Below are positions 40,837 through 58,880 of a stretch of 64,000 bases of DNA, piece after piece. The position numbers and the translations under genes are program-made. The first letter of the stretch is position 1; each line of letters begins with the position of its first letter. This stretch comes from Deltaproteobacteria bacterium (GTDB lineage: Bacteria; DRYD01): NCBI GenBank assembly GCA_028276365.1, contig JAPYWL010000002.1, forward strand, positions 36,305-100,304, read 5' to 3'. Under the pieces are notes generated by a model that ran no database searches, was not told the origin of the DNA, and worked only from the letters and a program-made list of their open reading frames with translations.

Positions 40837-41103
40837 TTACTTAATATTAGAGATATATTTAAAAACCTCAACAGCAAAAGTATAGAGCGAGCTAGCAACC
40901 CACCCTGCTGTTAAAGCAATCACAATAAAAGTAGCAACCATCTTAGGAACAAAACTTAAAGTTTGCTCTTGGATCTGAGTAACCGCTTGTAACAAACTAA
41001 TAACTAAACCTACAATCATAGCAGTAAGTAATACTGGAGCACTTAAAATAACTATTAAATATAAAGCCTGAACTATAAAATTATTTATATCAAACCCACT
41101 CAT
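40837..41103 (-). CDS. fliQ: Flagellar export gate protein FliQ
   Basis: 88 residues, two membrane segments, with the typical SAPVLLTAMIVGLVISLLQA and TQIQEQTLSFVPKMVAT. It forms the core of the flagellar type III export gate with FliP and FliR. It is the last gene of the fliM-N-O-P-Q run here; fliR, flhB and flhA, which usually follow, are absent and a transposase relic comes next. Confidence 0.96.
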   Translation of the reverse strand: MSGFDINNFIVQALYLIVILSAPVLLTAMIVGLVISLLQAVTQIQEQTLSFVPKMVATFIVIALTAGWVASSLYTFAVEVFKYISNIK

Positions 41104-41134
41104 TATTGATAATACTCATTATAAATGATACCTA

Positions 41135-41920
41135 CTATGGATAATAACTCTTAATAAGCCCTTCTGTTATTAACTTCCAACCATCTATACTAACAAAAAG
41201 CAATAACTTAAACGGTAAAGATACCGTCATAGGTGACATCATAAACATCCCCATTGCCATTAAAACTGATCCAACTATCATATCTATTACTAAAAACGGT
41301 AAATATATTAAAAAACCAATTATAAAAGCCACCTTTAACTCAGATAATATATAAGCAGGAATAACAACAGTTAAAGGTAAATCTTCCAATTTCTCTGGTT
41401 TCTTTATTTTTGAATAATTAATAAAAAATACTAAATCCTCTGATTTAGTATGTTTAATCATAAATTTTTTATACTCTTTAGTTACTCGAGAAATAAATTC
41501 TTCTTGAGTTATTTTTTTATTAAGATAAGGCTGTAAAGCTTCCTCATTTATTTTAATTAGTACAGGATTAAGAATATAAAGAGTAACAAAGAAAGAAAAA
41601 GCAATAATAACCTGATTAGGTGGAGTTTGTTGAGTTCCTAAAGCACTTCTTAACATGGAAAATACTATAACAACTCTTATATAAGGAGTCATCATTATAA
41701 TAATATAAGGAGCTAAAGATAAAACAGTTATTAACCCAATCGCCTTTAAAGGAGTAGCTATTGCGTCTGCAGTTTGCTTACCGTTAATTTCAATAGAAAC
41801 ATTAGGTAAAGTTATCTTAGGAGTATCTGCTGCATAAACATTATATATTAAAAACAAAAATAAAATTCCTAAAAATAAAATAAACAAATTCTTAAATATA
41901 TTTTTAAAAATTTTTTTCAT
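41135..41920 (-). CDS. fliP: Flagellar export gate protein FliP
   Basis: 261 residues with an N-terminal signal-like segment. Typical blocks are TVLSLAPYIIIMMTPYIRVVIVFSMLR, GTQQTPPNQVIIAFSFFVTLYIL and the C-terminal FIIGFLIYLPFLVIDMIVGSVLMAMGM with MMSPMTVSLPFKLLLFVSIDGW (parts). It forms the pentameric ring of the export gate. It starts 39 bp after fliO and ends 32 bp before fliQ. GGGAG precedes the start. Confidence 0.96.
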   Translation of the reverse strand: MKKIFKNIFKNLFILFLGILFLFLIYNVYAADTPKITLPNVSIEINGKQTADAIATPLKAIGLITVLSLAPYIIIMMTPYIRVVIVFSMLRSALGTQQTPPNQVIIAFSFFVTLYILNPVLIKINEEALQPYLNKKITQEEFISRVTKEYKKFMIKHTKSEDLVFFINYSKIKKPEKLEDLPLTVVIPAYILSELKVAFIIGFLIYLPFLVIDMIVGSVLMAMGMFMMSPMTVSLPFKLLLFVSIDGWKLITEGLIKSYYP

Positions 41921-41958
41921 ATCTCTTTTTCACTCCCTATTTCTAGTCCATTCTATAT

Positions 41959-42258
41959 CTATTTATCCTTAGAATTGCTTTTTAAATTAGTTACTTCATT
42001 TTCAATTTCGCTTAAATCAAATTCTTTGATTAAGTTAATATTGTTATCAGCAACAGAAATCATATAAACTTTTTTACTAACTTTAATAAAAACAATCCCT
42101 TTATTAGGAGCTAAATAAATTCTATCTAAAACCTGAGCAATTTTTATATTATAAGGATTCTGAATTTTATTGAAAAATTTTACAATAAAATATCCAATCC
42201 CCCCTATAATTAGTGCATATATAATAAAAACTAATCCCAAATTAAATAAAGGATCCAT
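41959..42258 (-). CDS. fliO: Flagellar biosynthesis protein FliO
   Basis: 99 residues with one N-terminal membrane segment (about 8-28) and a small cytosolic domain, KIAQVLDRIYLAPNKGIVFIKV. This is the FliO pattern, in which a conserved L-x-P-x-x-x-hydrophobic stretch follows the membrane anchor. FliO helps FliP assemble. The position between fliN and fliP supports the call. Confidence 0.85.
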   Translation of the reverse strand: MDPLFNLGLVFIIYALIIGGIGYFIVKFFNKIQNPYNIKIAQVLDRIYLAPNKGIVFIKVSKKVYMISVADNNINLIKEFDLSEIENEVTNLKSNSKDK

Positions 42259-42275
42259 TTTAATTTTCTCCTTAA

Positions 42276-42575
42276 TTATTTAACTATTTCAAGTATTCTA
42301 ACTCCAAAATTCTCATTAACAGCAATAACTTCACCCTTTGCTATGACTTTACCATTAACTAAAATATCTACAGGTTCTCCAGCTAGTTTATCTAACTCAA
42401 TAACAGATCCTACAGTTAATTTAAGAATATCTTTAACCAACATTTTAGCCCTACCAATCTCAACAGTAATAGTTAAAGGTACATCCTGAAGTATATCTAA
42501 ATTGGATTCGTCACTAGAAACAGTAGTCTTCTCTAATTGAGGTAAATTGAATTTAGATATATTTTCTTTATCCAT
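42276..42575 (-). CDS. fliN: Flagellar motor switch protein FliN
   Basis: 99 residues. The SpoA/SURF1-like domain reads VPLTITVEIGRAKMLVKDILKL, VIELDKLAGEPVDILVNGK and GEVIAVNENFGVRILEIV. It builds the lower C-ring with FliM. It is short and lacks the extra N-terminal CheC-like domain found in FliY-type proteins. It lies 23 bp from fliM and 17 bp from fliO. Confidence 0.95.
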   Translation of the reverse strand: MDKENISKFNLPQLEKTTVSSDESNLDILQDVPLTITVEIGRAKMLVKDILKLTVGSVIELDKLAGEPVDILVNGKVIAKGEVIAVNENFGVRILEIVK

Positions 42576-42598
42576 TAAATTCCCCCCTTTAATATATT

Positions 42599-43600
42599 TT
42601 ATTGATATTCTTCAGATTCTTCATCAGTTAAGACCTTTGTTATTTTAATCCCAATTTTGTTACCTACTATTCCTAAGGTACCTAAAAATTTAGTTTTACC
42701 CTCTATTTTTACCATAATAGGATCAGTTAATTTATTATCAAGAGTTATAATATCTCCAGGTTCTATATGAAGCAGATCTTGAAATAACACCTCAGTTTTA
42801 CCTAATATAGCTATAACATCTACTTTACTTAGACTTATATTTTTTTCACTTAATATTTTTTCTTTATCTTTAAGTATTTTATTTAATATATCTGGATTAA
42901 TAGTAGTAGTTATAGCAGCTTTTTGCTCAGGAATAATCTCTCTTAAATAATTAAAAGGGAAAATAATGGTTTGTAAAGATTCTAAAGATTCTATTCTAAT
43001 AATAGTATTAATCCTAGCAATATAAGAAGTATAAGGAATAGCTAAAGCACTAGCAGGTTCAGTAGAGATTTTCTCCAATTTAAGATAAGTCTTCTTATCA
43101 GGTTTATCTAAAGTACTTAAAATAGAATTAAATTCATTGATCATTTCTTCAACTATAAATTGTTGTAATAATTTACTTTCTAATTTAGTTAATTCTCTTA
43201 TATAAGTAGGAGCTTCCCCTTTACTACCCAATAACAAATTCAATAAAATAAAAATAATATAAGGATCAATAACTATTAAAGCTTTAGGAGTTGAAATAAT
43301 AGTACCTTCTATATCGATTCTTATTATTATACTAGGATTGGGTAAAAAATCAATAAACTCTGAAAACTGTAAAACCTCTATAGTAGATAAATCTATTATT
43401 ATTTTTTTTTGAATAATATCAGAAAGTTTTATAGATATTTTTTCTACATAATTCCTAAAGAAATTTAGTAAAAATTTATGCTCAAAGGATGTAAACTGAG
43501 GTTTAGTTAAAGAAAAATCTTTGCTCGGAATATTACTAATTCTATCTTCACTTGACTTTGATTTAATTATATACTTTTCAAAAGGATTACCACTTACCAT
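42599..43600 (-). CDS. fliM: Flagellar motor switch protein FliM
   Basis: 333 residues. The middle CheC-like domain is at about 45-230 and the C-terminal SpoA domain (VDVIAILGKTEVLFQDLL, LEPGDIITLD-like IEPGDIITLD, FLGTLGIVGNKIGIKI) at about 255-325. It links the rotor C-ring to FliG. The N-terminal CheY-P docking peptide, usually LSQ-x-E-I-D-x-LL, is not present: the protein begins MVSGNPFEKYIIKSKSSEDR. FliM without that peptide may not be steered by CheY in the usual way. No fliL precedes it. Confidence 0.93.
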   Translation of the reverse strand: MVSGNPFEKYIIKSKSSEDRISNIPSKDFSLTKPQFTSFEHKFLLNFFRNYVEKISIKLSDIIQKKIIIDLSTIEVLQFSEFIDFLPNPSIIIRIDIEGTIISTPKALIVIDPYIIFILLNLLLGSKGEAPTYIRELTKLESKLLQQFIVEEMINEFNSILSTLDKPDKKTYLKLEKISTEPASALAIPYTSYIARINTIIRIESLESLQTIIFPFNYLREIIPEQKAAITTTINPDILNKILKDKEKILSEKNISLSKVDVIAILGKTEVLFQDLLHIEPGDIITLDNKLTDPIMVKIEGKTKFLGTLGIVGNKIGIKITKVLTDEESEEYQ

Positions 43601-45474: not shown

Positions 45475-46404
45475 TTAAAATTTAACTTGAATAATTTTAA
45501 TCCCACCTATATTTTTATCATTTTTATAAAGTATATATAATTTATCACTCCATCTAAAAATGTTCATTATTTTAAATTTACTTTTTTCAAAGAATATGTT
45601 TATCTTTTCTAAAATTTTATCTTTATTTACAACATAAATTTCATCGTTTGATACTAAGTAAATTAAATCCTTCTCATCTATGTATATCTTATGTAATTTA
45701 GTTACATCAATTGAATAATTATTATAACTAATAAAATTAGCATTATTATCAAAAACTTGGATTCTATTATTATTTTTATCTAAAACATAAATAAAGCCTT
45801 TACTATCTACAGAAACGTCTATAGGTTCATCAAATTGAGAAGGTTCTTTCCCATATTTACCAAATAACATTAAAAAATTACCATCTAAATCATACTTAGC
45901 TATCCTATTATTTTTAGTATCAGCAATGTAAATAAATCCTATCTTATCAAGGCCAATCCCTAAAGGATTAGCAAAATTAGTTTCCTGATTCCCAAATTTC
46001 CCTACCTCCCAAATAACCTTCCCATTAGAATCCATCTTAACAAGCTTAGAAAGGTAAGAATCTAACACATAAATAAAATTATTTTTATCTACTTCAATAT
46101 CACAAGGCTCTCTAAATTGACCCCTATCATTACCATATTTACCTATTGAATCGATATATTTCAAGTTATATTCATCTACAGCGTATTTCTTTATTTCTCC
46201 TTTTAAATCCGTTATATATGCTATTTTTAGTAAACTATCATAAGCCAAAGAAGTAGGATTAAGATCATTAAATTCGGTATAAGCATTCTTAGGTAAATCT
46301 ATAGGAATTACACCCCTAAAAATAACTACATATATATATACCCCACCAATTAATATCAATAAAAAAATAATAATCATCAATAACCAATAAAATCTGCTTA
46401 TCAT
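45475..46404 (-). CDS. Membrane-anchored NHL-repeat (beta-propeller) protein
   Basis: 309 residues. One N-terminal membrane segment (about 5-32) is followed by an extracytoplasmic beta-propeller with NHL repeats: FREPCDIEVDKNNFIYVLDS, FANPLGIGLDKIGFIYIADT, FDEPIDVSVDSKGFIYVLDK, with linking NNRIAKYDLDGNFLMLFG. Such propellers bind proteins, sugars or RNA in different families; no ligand is evident. It lies upstream of pyrG and divergent from the beta-helix gene cluster. Confidence 0.88.
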   Translation of the reverse strand: MISRFYWLLMIIIFLLILIGGVYIYVVIFRGVIPIDLPKNAYTEFNDLNPTSLAYDSLLKIAYITDLKGEIKKYAVDEYNLKYIDSIGKYGNDRGQFREPCDIEVDKNNFIYVLDSYLSKLVKMDSNGKVIWEVGKFGNQETNFANPLGIGLDKIGFIYIADTKNNRIAKYDLDGNFLMLFGKYGKEPSQFDEPIDVSVDSKGFIYVLDKNNNRIQVFDNNANFISYNNYSIDVTKLHKIYIDEKDLIYLVSNDEIYVVNKDKILEKINIFFEKSKFKIMNIFRWSDKLYILYKNDKNIGGIKIIQVKF

Positions 46405-46580
46405 ATTTTAATTATTCTATAAAAAATTTAATCCCCATTTTTTATTTAGGTTTAGGTTTATTCAAGTTTAAAAAATAGCAATTTTCATTATCAAAATTCA
46501 TAATCAAATAAATTATCATATTAAAAATTAACTTTTTTTTTACAAATAAGTTATACTTTTTATTTAAAATTAATTTATTA

Positions 46581-46586: not shown

Positions 46587-46642
46587 ATCAAAAACTAAAA
46601 TAGAAAAAAATAAAAAATACAAATCTAAGGGGGTGCTAAAAA

Positions 46643-47200
46643 ATGAACACAGGAATAAAAGGAAATAATATAAACATCCAAGCAGGTAATATAGTTATAA
46701 AAAATAATACAGTCGGTATAAAAGGGAAAACTACTAAAATAGAAGGCGGGAAATTAGAAATAGAATTAAATAAAACAGGAGTAGATAGTGTTAATTTATC
46801 AACTAATTTAGCAGAAATACAAATAAAATCAAATGAAAAAGGAGTTAAAGGAAGTAATTTAGGACTAAAAGCTGAAGAACTTATTAATATATCAAATAAT
46901 CAAAAAGGAGTAGAAGGAAAAAATGTAGGAGTTAAGACTTCAGGAGTTGTAATTTTAAGTGGTAATGGAAATGGAGTTAGTGGAGAAAATGTAGCTTCAC
47001 TAAAAGGACAAAGCGTTGTAATAACATCTAACAAAGTAGGAGCAGAAGGAGAAAATATGTATGTTAAAGGTTCTAAAGTAGTAGTTTCAAATAATACAGT
47101 AGGAGCTCAAGGCAATTCTATTAACGTTAAAGCAGATGAACTTATAGTAGTTGATAACGTATTAGGTTTCAAACAAAAACAAATAAAAAAAACAGCATAA
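46643..47200 (+). CDS. Eight-coil parallel beta-helix repeat protein (unknown function)
   Basis: 185 residues made almost wholly of eight repeats of 21-22 residues, starting at Gly 4, 25, 46, 67, 89, 111, 133 and 154. Consensus: G-[VIA]-x-G-x-N-[VIL]-x-[VIL]-x4-[VIL]-x-[VI]-x-x-N-x-x. The regular Gly turns, alternating hydrophobics and Asn ladder suggest a right-handed parallel beta-helix, different in period from bactofilins (about 17-18). There is no signal peptide, no Cys and no aromatic except two near the ends. AAGGGGGTG just upstream implies strong expression. The next gene carries one copy of the same coil. A self-stacking fibre or scaffold is inferred. Confidence 0.85.
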   Translation: MNTGIKGNNINIQAGNIVIKNNTVGIKGKTTKIEGGKLEIELNKTGVDSVNLSTNLAEIQIKSNEKGVKGSNLGLKAEELINISNNQKGVEGKNVGVKTSGVVILSGNGNGVSGENVASLKGQSVVITSNKVGAEGENMYVKGSKVVVSNNTVGAQGNSINVKADELIVVDNVLGFKQKQIKKTA

Positions 47201-47267
47201 AAAATATATAAAAACTTAAGGAGTTTATCTAAAAATTAAGAATTAAAAAAATAGGGAGGATTTTTAA

Positions 47268-47669
47268 ATGAATAACTTAAACAACATAAATAAATTAAAT
47301 AATATCAATAATATCCCTAAAAAAGATGCTCAAAAATTAGAGCAAACTGGAATCAAAGGGGAAAATATAAACATAAAAGCAGATAACGTATATATAATTA
47401 ACAATACAAATAATTTTAATAAACCTATTTATAATAATTTTAATTATCCAGTTTCCAATTACAACAACTTTAATTATCCTCCCTATTATCATAATTTTAT
47501 TAATTTCTATAATTTATTTAGCATAGGTTCATACAATTCAATGTTTTTATATAATCCAATATTTTTTAATTACTTTTATACTACTTCATTATTTAATCCT
47601 TATTTTTATTGTAATTTATTACCTAGTTATATATACTTAAGTTTATTCAATTTACTTAGATATTTTTAA
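47268..47669 (+). CDS. Protein with one beta-helix coil and an aromatic/Asn-rich tail
   Basis: 133 residues. Residues 1-25 are Asn/Leu/Ile-rich. Residues 27-47, TGIKGENINIKADNVYIINNT, align with the first coil of the preceding protein (15 of 21 identical by my count). The rest is Asn, Phe and Tyr-rich (NNFNYP-type repeats, then a hydrophobic Phe/Tyr/Leu end). No signal peptide. GGGAGGA precedes the ATG. The shared coil suggests it docks on, caps or is templated by the eight-coil protein; the aromatic tail could mediate phase separation or membrane contact. These roles are inference. Confidence 0.75.
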   Translation: MNNLNNINKLNNINNIPKKDAQKLEQTGIKGENINIKADNVYIINNTNNFNKPIYNNFNYPVSNYNNFNYPPYYHNFINFYNLFSIGSYNSMFLYNPIFFNYFYTTSLFNPYFYCNLLPSYIYLSLFNLLRYF

Positions 47670-47693
47670 AATAAAAAATGGGGGGCGAATTTT

Positions 47694-48215
47694 ATGGATA
47701 TAAATAATATAAAAAATACTAACCTACAAACTAATCTAACTATCCAAAATAGTTCAGTTAATCAGGTAAATTCACAAGCAAATCAAAATACATCAACTAA
47801 TATTCAAAGTAATCCTACTGTTAATGTCCAAGACAATTTTAATCTAAATAATACAAATAAACCAGAAATTATTAATACATCTTTAAATCTTCAAGAAATA
47901 AGTAATCAAGTATCACAATTAAGTTCAATGATAGGTAATCCATTTACACAAAACCCATTTTATCAAAATCCTATGATGCATAATAATCCATATTTAATAA
48001 ATACGGCTAATTACGATCCCAATATTACTAATGTAAATTCTGTTAACAATAGTGGTAATTTGTGGAAATACTTATTAGCAGGAGGATTAGGTTTCTTAAC
48101 AGGTGCAGCTTTATCCTCCTTAATGTTTTATTCTTATCCCCTTTATTATCCAATGTATTATTCATACTATTATAGTCCATATTGGTATAATTTTTATCCC
48201 TATATGTGGTGGTAA
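47694..48215 (+). CDS. Asn/Gln-rich protein with one membrane segment and Tyr-rich C-terminus
   Basis: 173 residues. Residues 1-120 are Asn/Gln/Ser/Thr-rich and likely disordered. Residues about 123-147 form one membrane segment with a Gly-zipper look (LLAGGLGFLTGAALSSLMF). The last 26 residues contain about 12 Tyr and 3 Trp. GGGGGGCG precedes the ATG by about 8 nt. It is the third gene of the compact cluster after the beta-helix genes (24-bp gap) and could anchor their products at the membrane. I know of no family for it. Confidence 0.75.
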   Translation: MDINNIKNTNLQTNLTIQNSSVNQVNSQANQNTSTNIQSNPTVNVQDNFNLNNTNKPEIINTSLNLQEISNQVSQLSSMIGNPFTQNPFYQNPMMHNNPYLINTANYDPNITNVNSVNNSGNLWKYLLAGGLGFLTGAALSSLMFYSYPLYYPMYYSYYYSPYWYNFYPYMWW

Positions 48216-57350: not shown

Positions 57351-58880
57351 ATGAATAATTTATTGCCAATAGGAATTAGTGATTTTAAAAAATTAAGAGA
57401 ACAGAATTTTATATATGTTGATAAAACAGAGTATATTTATAAATTAATAACAGAGGGAGGAGGATATTATTTTTTAAGTAGGCCAAGACGCTTTGGAAAA
57501 TCCTTATTACTTTCTACACTTGATTGTTTATTTAAAGGAGAAAAAAATCTATTTAAAGGGTTATATATATATAATAAATGGAACTGGGAAGAGAGTTATC
57601 CAGTTATAAAAATAGATTTCGCAGAAACACAAGTAAAAAGTCAAGAGGAACTACAAAAGGAGCTAAAAGCTATAATAATAGAAACAGGAAAAAAATATGA
57701 ATATAAATATAATAAAGAATATACAATAAATAGGAATTTAAGATTGCTAATAGAGAAGATTTATGAATTAAGTAAAAAACAAGTAGTGATATTAATAGAT
57801 GAGTATGATAAACCGATATTAGATAATATAGAGAATAAAAAAGAAGTAGAGAAAATAAGAGAAGAGTTAAAAGGATTTTATACAATATTAAAGGGATTAG
57901 ATAGATACATAAGGTTTTTTCTAATAACAGGAGTAAGTAAATTTGCTAAAGTTTCTTTATTTAGTGGTTTAAATCAACTAAAAGATATCTCCTTAGATCC
58001 TAAATATGGCAACATTTGTGGTTATACCCAAAATGAATTAGAATTTTACTTTCAAGATTATTTACAAGGACTAAATTTAGATGAAATTAAAGAATGGTAC
58101 AATGGTTACTATTTCTTACAAGATACACTTTATAACCCCTTTGATATACTTTTATTCTTAGATAGTAAGGAGTTTAATAGTTATTGGTATGAAACTGGAA
58201 AAACTGAATTTTTATTTAAACTACTAAAAAACAAAGACTATCAATTACCCTATTTAACTAAAGCTTATTATACTAATGAGATATTGGATAAATTTGATTT
58301 AGAGTATATAAGTATAGAAGCTCTTATGTTTCAAACTGGTTATTTAACTATTAAAGAAGTAAAGAAAATAGATAATGAGAAATTTTTTATCTTAAATTAT
58401 CCCAATAAAGAAGTAAGGCAATCCTTTAATAGAGAACTTCTTTTTTATATCACTCATGAATACCAAATAAATTTAACCTCTAAACTCAAAATAGCAATAA
58501 TCCAAGAAAATATTGATGAAATAAAAAATCAAATAGATATATTTCTAAATTCAATAAGTTATCAGATACTAAAAAACGAGTATGTATATCAGGCTGCTAT
58601 TTATGGACTACTTTATTCAATGGGATACAATATTATAATAGAAGATAATACATCAAAAGGTAGAATAGATTTAACTATATTGGTAAATAAAAGTATAGTG
58701 TATATAATTGAATTTAAAGTAATTCAAAATTCTAAAGAGAAAGGACAAGCTCTAAAACAAATTCTACAAAAAGAACATTACAAAAAATATTTAAATTACG
58801 AAAAGATCTATATAATAGGGATAGAGCTAAATAAAGCTAAAAAAAAGATAGCAAATTTTGAGTATAAAAAAATAAAATAA
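57351..58880 (+). CDS. AAA-ATPase-like / PD-(D/E)XK nuclease-like protein (PF09820 + PF08011 type)
   Basis: 509 residues. MNNLLPIGISDFKKLREQNF and YVDKTEYIYKLI open the AAA-ATPase-like domain; Walker A RPRRFGKSLLLSTL, Walker B VVILIDEYDKP. The C-terminal about 110 residues carry a PD-(D/E)XK pattern: GRIDLTILVN ... IIEFKVIQ (Asp and Glu-x-Lys). The family is widespread and often multi-copy in host-associated anaerobes. Its role, possibly mobile-element or defence related, is not established. GGAAGGTG precedes the ATG. Single gene, divergent from the Trm112-like gene. Confidence 0.9.
   Translation: MNNLLPIGISDFKKLREQNFIYVDKTEYIYKLITEGGGYYFLSRPRRFGKSLLLSTLDCLFKGEKNLFKGLYIYNKWNWEESYPVIKIDFAETQVKSQEELQKELKAIIIETGKKYEYKYNKEYTINRNLRLLIEKIYELSKKQVVILIDEYDKPILDNIENKKEVEKIREELKGFYTILKGLDRYIRFFLITGVSKFAKVSLFSGLNQLKDISLDPKYGNICGYTQNELEFYFQDYLQGLNLDEIKEWYNGYYFLQDTLYNPFDILLFLDSKEFNSYWYETGKTEFLFKLLKNKDYQLPYLTKAYYTNEILDKFDLEYISIEALMFQTGYLTIKEVKKIDNEKFFILNYPNKEVRQSFNRELLFYITHEYQINLTSKLKIAIIQENIDEIKNQIDIFLNSISYQILKNEYVYQAAIYGLLYSMGYNIIIEDNTSKGRIDLTILVNKSIVYIIEFKVIQNSKEKGQALKQILQKEHYKKYLNYEKIYIIGIELNKAKKKIANFEYKKIK

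Follow-up and report, generated by a model that had tools for sequence, protein, structure and literature searches.

Three adjacent genes in a 64,000-nucleotide stretch of DNA, here called the window, are a real, conserved module, specific to one family of uncultured bacteria, in which a known fold occurs in an unfamiliar setting. The preliminary description is confirmed as to what was seen and upheld in part as to how it was read. The product of gene 1 is predicted with confidence, from structural modelling, to be a right-handed parallel β-helix that consists of coils only and has no helical cap. As a tentative reading, to which we give a probability of roughly 0.38, the trio would be a small intracellular, membrane-tethered β-helix scaffold working roughly like bactofilin.

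Organization of the gene trio

The window has a G+C content of 23.7% and comes from a draft genome of 1.59 Mb that is 87% complete. The features of the trio are as follows:

46530..46545, plus strand: AACTTTTTTTTTACAA, T-rich element 5' of gene 1, possible promoter part (upstream alignment; putative function)
46629..46635, plus strand: ribosome-binding site of gene 1, GGGGGTG (sequence; rank 9/51)
46643..47200, plus strand: gene 1, eight-coil right-handed β-helix protein (predicted), 185 aa, no Cys, no apparent signal peptide (sequence and model)
46652..47167, plus strand: coil region of gene 1, eight coils of 21-22 residues spanning residues 4-175 (self-similarity and model)
47254..47259, plus strand: ribosome-binding site of gene 2, GGGAGG (sequence; rank 13/51)
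47268..47669, plus strand: gene 2, Asn-rich start, one coil and aromatic tail with one Cys, 133 aa (sequence and orthologues)
47349..47411, plus strand: single coil of gene 2, residues 28-48, GIKGENINIKADNVYIINNTN (coil comparison with gene 1)
47680..47685, plus strand: ribosome-binding site of gene 3, GGGGGG (sequence; rank 16/51)
47694..48215, plus strand: gene 3, Asn/Gln-rich N-terminal part, membrane segment and Tyr/Trp-rich end, 173 aa
48072..48128, plus strand: membrane segment of gene 3 at residues 127-145, hydrophobic and rich in Gly (Kyte-Doolittle peak of 1.67 in a 19-residue span; conserved)
48129..48212, plus strand: Tyr/Trp-rich C-terminal tail of gene 3 (conservation among orthologues)

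The three ORFs form a tight unit on one strand, as had been stated in the preliminary description, with intergenic gaps of 67 nt (genes 1 and 2) and 24 nt (genes 2 and 3). Their ribosome-binding sites, regarded there as very strong, are strong but not exceptional, ranking 9, 13 and 16 among the 51 ATG-start ORFs of the window. About 100 nt before the gene 1 start codon, an element made up of a T-run and then ACAA is near-identical in four genomes of the family (G000, G001, G004 and G005) and weaker in a fifth (G002); judged from this alignment, it is possibly a promoter element with a long leader.

On the 3' side the trio is followed, on the same strand, by the gene of an HMGL-like enzyme. The 5' neighbour is a divergent gene (45475-46404, minus strand), which is not found beside the trio in G001; it codes for an NHL-repeat protein that has a single membrane segment at its N-terminus. 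Flagellar genes (FliM/FliN, FliP and FliQ-like, by reading) are located a few kb upstream of the trio at 40837-43600 on the minus strand. A tie between them and the trio was considered and dropped, since none of them occurs in the flanks of the trio in the other genomes. Elsewhere in the window, the ORF at 57351-58880 (plus strand) codes for an AAA-ATPase-like protein with a nuclease-like C-terminal domain (by reading), of a kind common in uncultured low-GC genomes.

Conservation and distribution

The family genomes are 71-90% complete, and in five of the six (G000, G001, G002, G004 and G005) the three genes lie side by side in an unchanged order. In the sixth, G003, a contig end cuts through gene 2 on the side where gene 1 would be expected, leaving gene 3 and the greater part of gene 2. 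The three-gene arrangement is thus a feature of the related genomes and not of the window only. In the genus of the window the upstream gene varies, coding for either the NHL protein or an enoyl-CoA hydratase-like protein, and the downstream HMGL gene is common; in the other genus the flanks include a HAD phosphatase and, upstream, either a large protein of pilus-like type or a gene resembling that of seryl-tRNA synthetase. The neighbours in both genera were named by reading. Since the trio keeps its order and adjacency in two genera although the neighbours change, it behaves as a single unit.

Profile searches did not find the trio in the order-level neighbour G006 (73% complete) or in about 380 further genomes. 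Weak profile matches of genes 2 and 3 (L028, L049, L050 and L060-L062) were rejected as Asn-rich proteins, stop-interrupted frames and an unrelated metallo-β-lactamase-like ORF. Viral contigs yielded no relatives of gene 1 or gene 3, so there is no sign of a phage origin.

Comparison with the orthologues in G001 gave substitution rates (dN/dS) of 0.095/0.626 for gene 1, 0.180/1.394 for gene 2 and 0.228/0.805 for gene 3. With the resulting ratios of about 0.15, 0.13 and 0.28, respectively, all three are real protein-coding genes under purifying selection.

Coils and predicted fold of gene 1

In the gene 1 protein, self-similarity is highest at a spacing of 21 residues (0.65 BLOSUM62 per residue), a value reached by none of 500 composition shuffles (maximum 0.195), and the same spacing leads in gene 1 of all five orthologues. 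The eight coils comprise residues 4-24, 25-45, 46-66, 67-88, 89-110, 111-132, 133-153 and 154-175, their lengths being 21, 21, 21, 22, 22, 22, 21 and 22 residues in that order; they are preceded by three residues and followed by about ten. The protein is therefore, as initially described, almost nothing but eight coils of 21-22 residues.

AlphaFold2 supplied with the five-sequence orthologue alignment returned a model of strands only, with no helices, at a pLDDT of 91.9 and a pTM of 0.87, so that prediction of gene 1 alone did give the proposed β-helix. The model obtained from the single sequence (pLDDT 65.8, meaningless fold matches) was set aside. Superposition of solved structures on the accepted model demonstrated that right-handed β-helices fit over about 170-180 residues at 2.7-3.0 Å, with right-handed matches reaching up to 3.4 Å overall, the best of them being Cthe_2159 (4phb; Z 18.1, 2.8 Å over 178 residues). 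No bactofilin structure stands among the matches listed, which is neutral as evidence. The left-handed matches LpxD, LpxA and GlmU, despite high Z scores, superimpose only at about 12 Å and were rejected as being of the wrong hand; it is this difference that assigns the right hand to the predicted fold. Foldseek found no match to the model at E ≤ 0.001 in the PDB or viral libraries, and matches to CATSPERB, ClpP and PRK10754 were judged to be due to chance. Solved right-handed β-helix enzymes usually bear an N-terminal helical cap, which makes the open ends of the modelled helix noteworthy.

In the comparison of orthologues, conservation is highest in coils 1, 2, 6 and 7. This pattern would also fit a binding surface, and the trio might accordingly have a function other than scaffolding, in storage, ligand buffering or signalling, with the β-helix serving as a rod that binds as a monomer and the gene 2 product regulating it. 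Everything measured here is compatible with such a role; against it, domain searches including Pfam recognized no catalytic, metal or nucleotide motif in the trio products, and we consider it possible but rather unlikely.

Relationship of gene 1 to the Cthe_2159 family

The Cthe_2159 family (Pfam PF14262) comprises β-helix proteins binding cellulose and polygalacturonic acid (PMC6712302), which need calcium to recognise their ligand (PMC8746771). Its profile matches gene 1 in three of the five orthologues at E ≤ 10 (best E 3.4e-8), the scores for G002 (27.3 bits) and G004 (30.7 bits) exceeding the curated cut-off of 25.8 bits; the window's own gene 1 has no match in Pfam, PF14262 included. In the reverse direction, a profile of gene 1 run against other genomes finds three PF14262 proteins, with E values from 1.5e-4 to 8.8e-4, and hhalign of gene 1 against these three gives a probability of 31% with very thin alignments. 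The two groups have in common the right-handed β-helix (modelled in gene 1), similar coils (GI..+N..I.GG...I) and the position of 4phb as the best solved structure. As the orthologue Pfam matches, the reverse profile search and the fold comparison agree, it is likely that gene 1 and Cthe_2159 share a distant common descent, though repeats can also converge. To call the structure undescribed is hence too strong as regards the coil itself, and the refuting condition of a match to a characterised family applies in part, through orthologues other than the window's copy.

Gene 1 nevertheless differs from the Cthe_2159 family in several respects. It is made of coils only (185 aa), its match covers only positions 89-202 of the 262 in the profile, and it belongs to a fixed trio. 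A hydrophobic export start is found in none of the five gene 1 proteins (by reading) and is present in the PF14262 proteins L045 and L046; likewise, DDG, the core of the repeated DDG(I/W) motif, is absent from all five and occurs two to six times in L043, L045 and L046. Lacking the export start, the DDG motifs and over half of the profile, gene 1 is probably a stripped, cytosolic derivative of the PF14262 family, to judge by its sequence, and was not filed as a member. The same differences, together with the unmatched copy in the window, weigh against the view that gene 1 acts within the Cthe_2159 family as a protein that binds carbohydrates or resembles a lyase, the products of genes 2 and 3 being accessory surface proteins. 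The Pfam scores, the reverse search and the first rank of Cthe_2159 among solved folds all speak for that view; repetitive coils can, however, score through a common repeat pattern, and we regard it as improbable.

Products of genes 2 and 3

Gene 2 had been described as one coil of the gene 1 type followed by an aromatic tail, and this is supported by the orthologues, whose Phe/Trp/Tyr content is 23-27%. Scored against gene 1, the coil at residues 28-48 exceeded all of 1000 shuffles in each of the five genomes. The more specific correspondence with coil 1 is clear only in the genus of the window (73 vs 51; 66 vs 51), whereas in the other genus the best partner in gene 1 is coil 1 (narrowly), coil 7 or coil 2. 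What stands is thus a likeness beyond chance in all five genomes, with no consistent partner coil.

The initial picture of gene 3 also proved correct: the Asn/Gln content is 23-27%, and there is a single hydrophobic stretch, at residues 127-145, ahead of the Tyr/Trp-rich end. The N-terminal Asn/Gln-rich part is variable; the membrane segment and the tail are nearly invariant. Exactly one cysteine is found in each of the five gene 2 orthologues, always within the aromatic tail (Cys 115 in the window, 47612-47614). The tail of gene 3 has at least one cysteine in four of the five orthologues, the window's copy being the exception, and gene 1 has none. The cysteines of the two tails could provide a disulfide or metal link between the products of genes 2 and 3.

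Reading of the orthologue sequences revealed no hydrophobic N-terminal signal in any trio protein. Spore coat proteins in general resemble the trio in their aromatic, Asn-rich composition, and a coat of a spore or dormant cell, built of highly expressed proteins of this kind without signal peptides, was therefore considered. The C-terminal domain of Spo0A was not found in about seven to eight family and neighbour genomes searched (five of them of the family), the control Bacillus subtilis being found. This absence disfavours a spore coat, as does the diderm genome, and the explanation is very improbable indeed.

A possible membrane-tethered scaffold

Given that signal peptides are lacking, that the helix consists of coils only and that it is accompanied by a one-coil protein and a membrane protein, an intracellular scaffold is the simplest reading of the trio. 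From the sequences and the model we infer polymerisation, docking between genes 1 and 2, membrane tethering, a cytosolic location and a biological role of the trio. The gene 1 protein is predicted with confidence to fold as a rigid right-handed β-helix without helical caps, and its two open ends could either stack end to end or take a docked coil. The single coil of gene 2 would most likely add to an end of this helix as an extra coil, which is the most natural arrangement because one coil cannot fold independently, and the aromatic tail may then sit in or on the membrane. A lone membrane segment on the C-terminal side and the lack of a signal peptide suggest that gene 3 is an inner-membrane protein whose Asn/Gln-rich part is cytosolic and which would hold the assembly at the membrane.

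Two observations at the level of sequence count against the scaffold: gene 1 has its nearest sequence relatives among exported proteins that bind carbohydrates, and the coil of gene 2 is not a consistent copy of the first coil of gene 1. It is doubtful, and at best possible, that the trio represents an undescribed nucleotide-free β-helix polymer which goes back to an exported fold for carbohydrate binding and whose assembly the one-coil partner and the membrane protein start, cap or tether. If the scaffold reading is true, a carbohydrate-binding β-helix has been turned into an intracellular scaffold, and a partner protein with one matching coil would be a simple control rule for a β-helix polymer. 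The small single-domain parts and the confident model make testing easy and might lend themselves to the design of fibres. Should the scaffold idea prove wrong, the trio remains a module conserved within its family and specific to it, without an assigned function.

Comparison with known systems

Among exported adhesins, the C-terminal domain of tapirin (6n2b) and SRRP (5nxk) resemble the gene 1 model in fold, at 2.8-2.9 Å; unlike gene 1, they are exported, and they have no sequence match with it.

Curli offer a parallel in organization. CsgA and CsgB are a major and a minor subunit sharing a repeat (PMC10192328), and the trio similarly combines a solenoid of about 22-residue repeats with a second protein that shares the repeat. 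The chief rival to the scaffold is based on this resemblance, namely an extracellular fibre or coat with gene 1 as the main subunit, gene 2 as the minor subunit or nucleator and gene 3 as the anchor, leaving the cell in a Sec-independent way. The cell is diderm, Omp85 being found in G000-G003, and the aromatic and Asn/Gln-rich tails would fit surface or matrix proteins. None of the three proteins has a Sec signal, however; gene 1 matches neither the curlin motif S-x5-G-x(1,2)-N-x5-Q nor a curlin Pfam profile, gene 2 has one coil only, and no curli export or other secretion gene adjoins the trio in the flanks of any genome. The modelled hand of gene 1 is right and that of curli is left, but for curlin repeats AlphaFold2 may yield models of both hands (PMC10192328). 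A fibre outside the cell is, on balance, unlikely.

The intracellular scaffold, for its part, is compared with bactofilin. Bactofilin coils have 17-18 residues, so that the difference in coil length from the 21-22 residues of gene 1, pointed out in the preliminary description, is confirmed. The bactofilin profile (PF04519) matches neither the gene 1 orthologues nor anything in the five family genomes searched, and it matches four of 14 control genomes. A bactofilin-like role is consequently open in the family, though with family genomes of this completeness the lack of a match is no proof of absence. Many bacteria without bactofilins have no substitute. Bactofilins polymerise without nucleotide at the inner face of the membrane, to which they are targeted by the start MFSKKKK (PMC12448750). 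The gene 1 proteins start with MNTGIKG and MAG[IV]..., unlike this sequence, and the candidates for membrane attachment are encoded by separate partner genes. In spite of these differences, gene 1 would be like bactofilin in its way of working, and in that only: a small, uncapped right-handed β-helix, as predicted, apparently cytosolic and with a possible link to the membrane.
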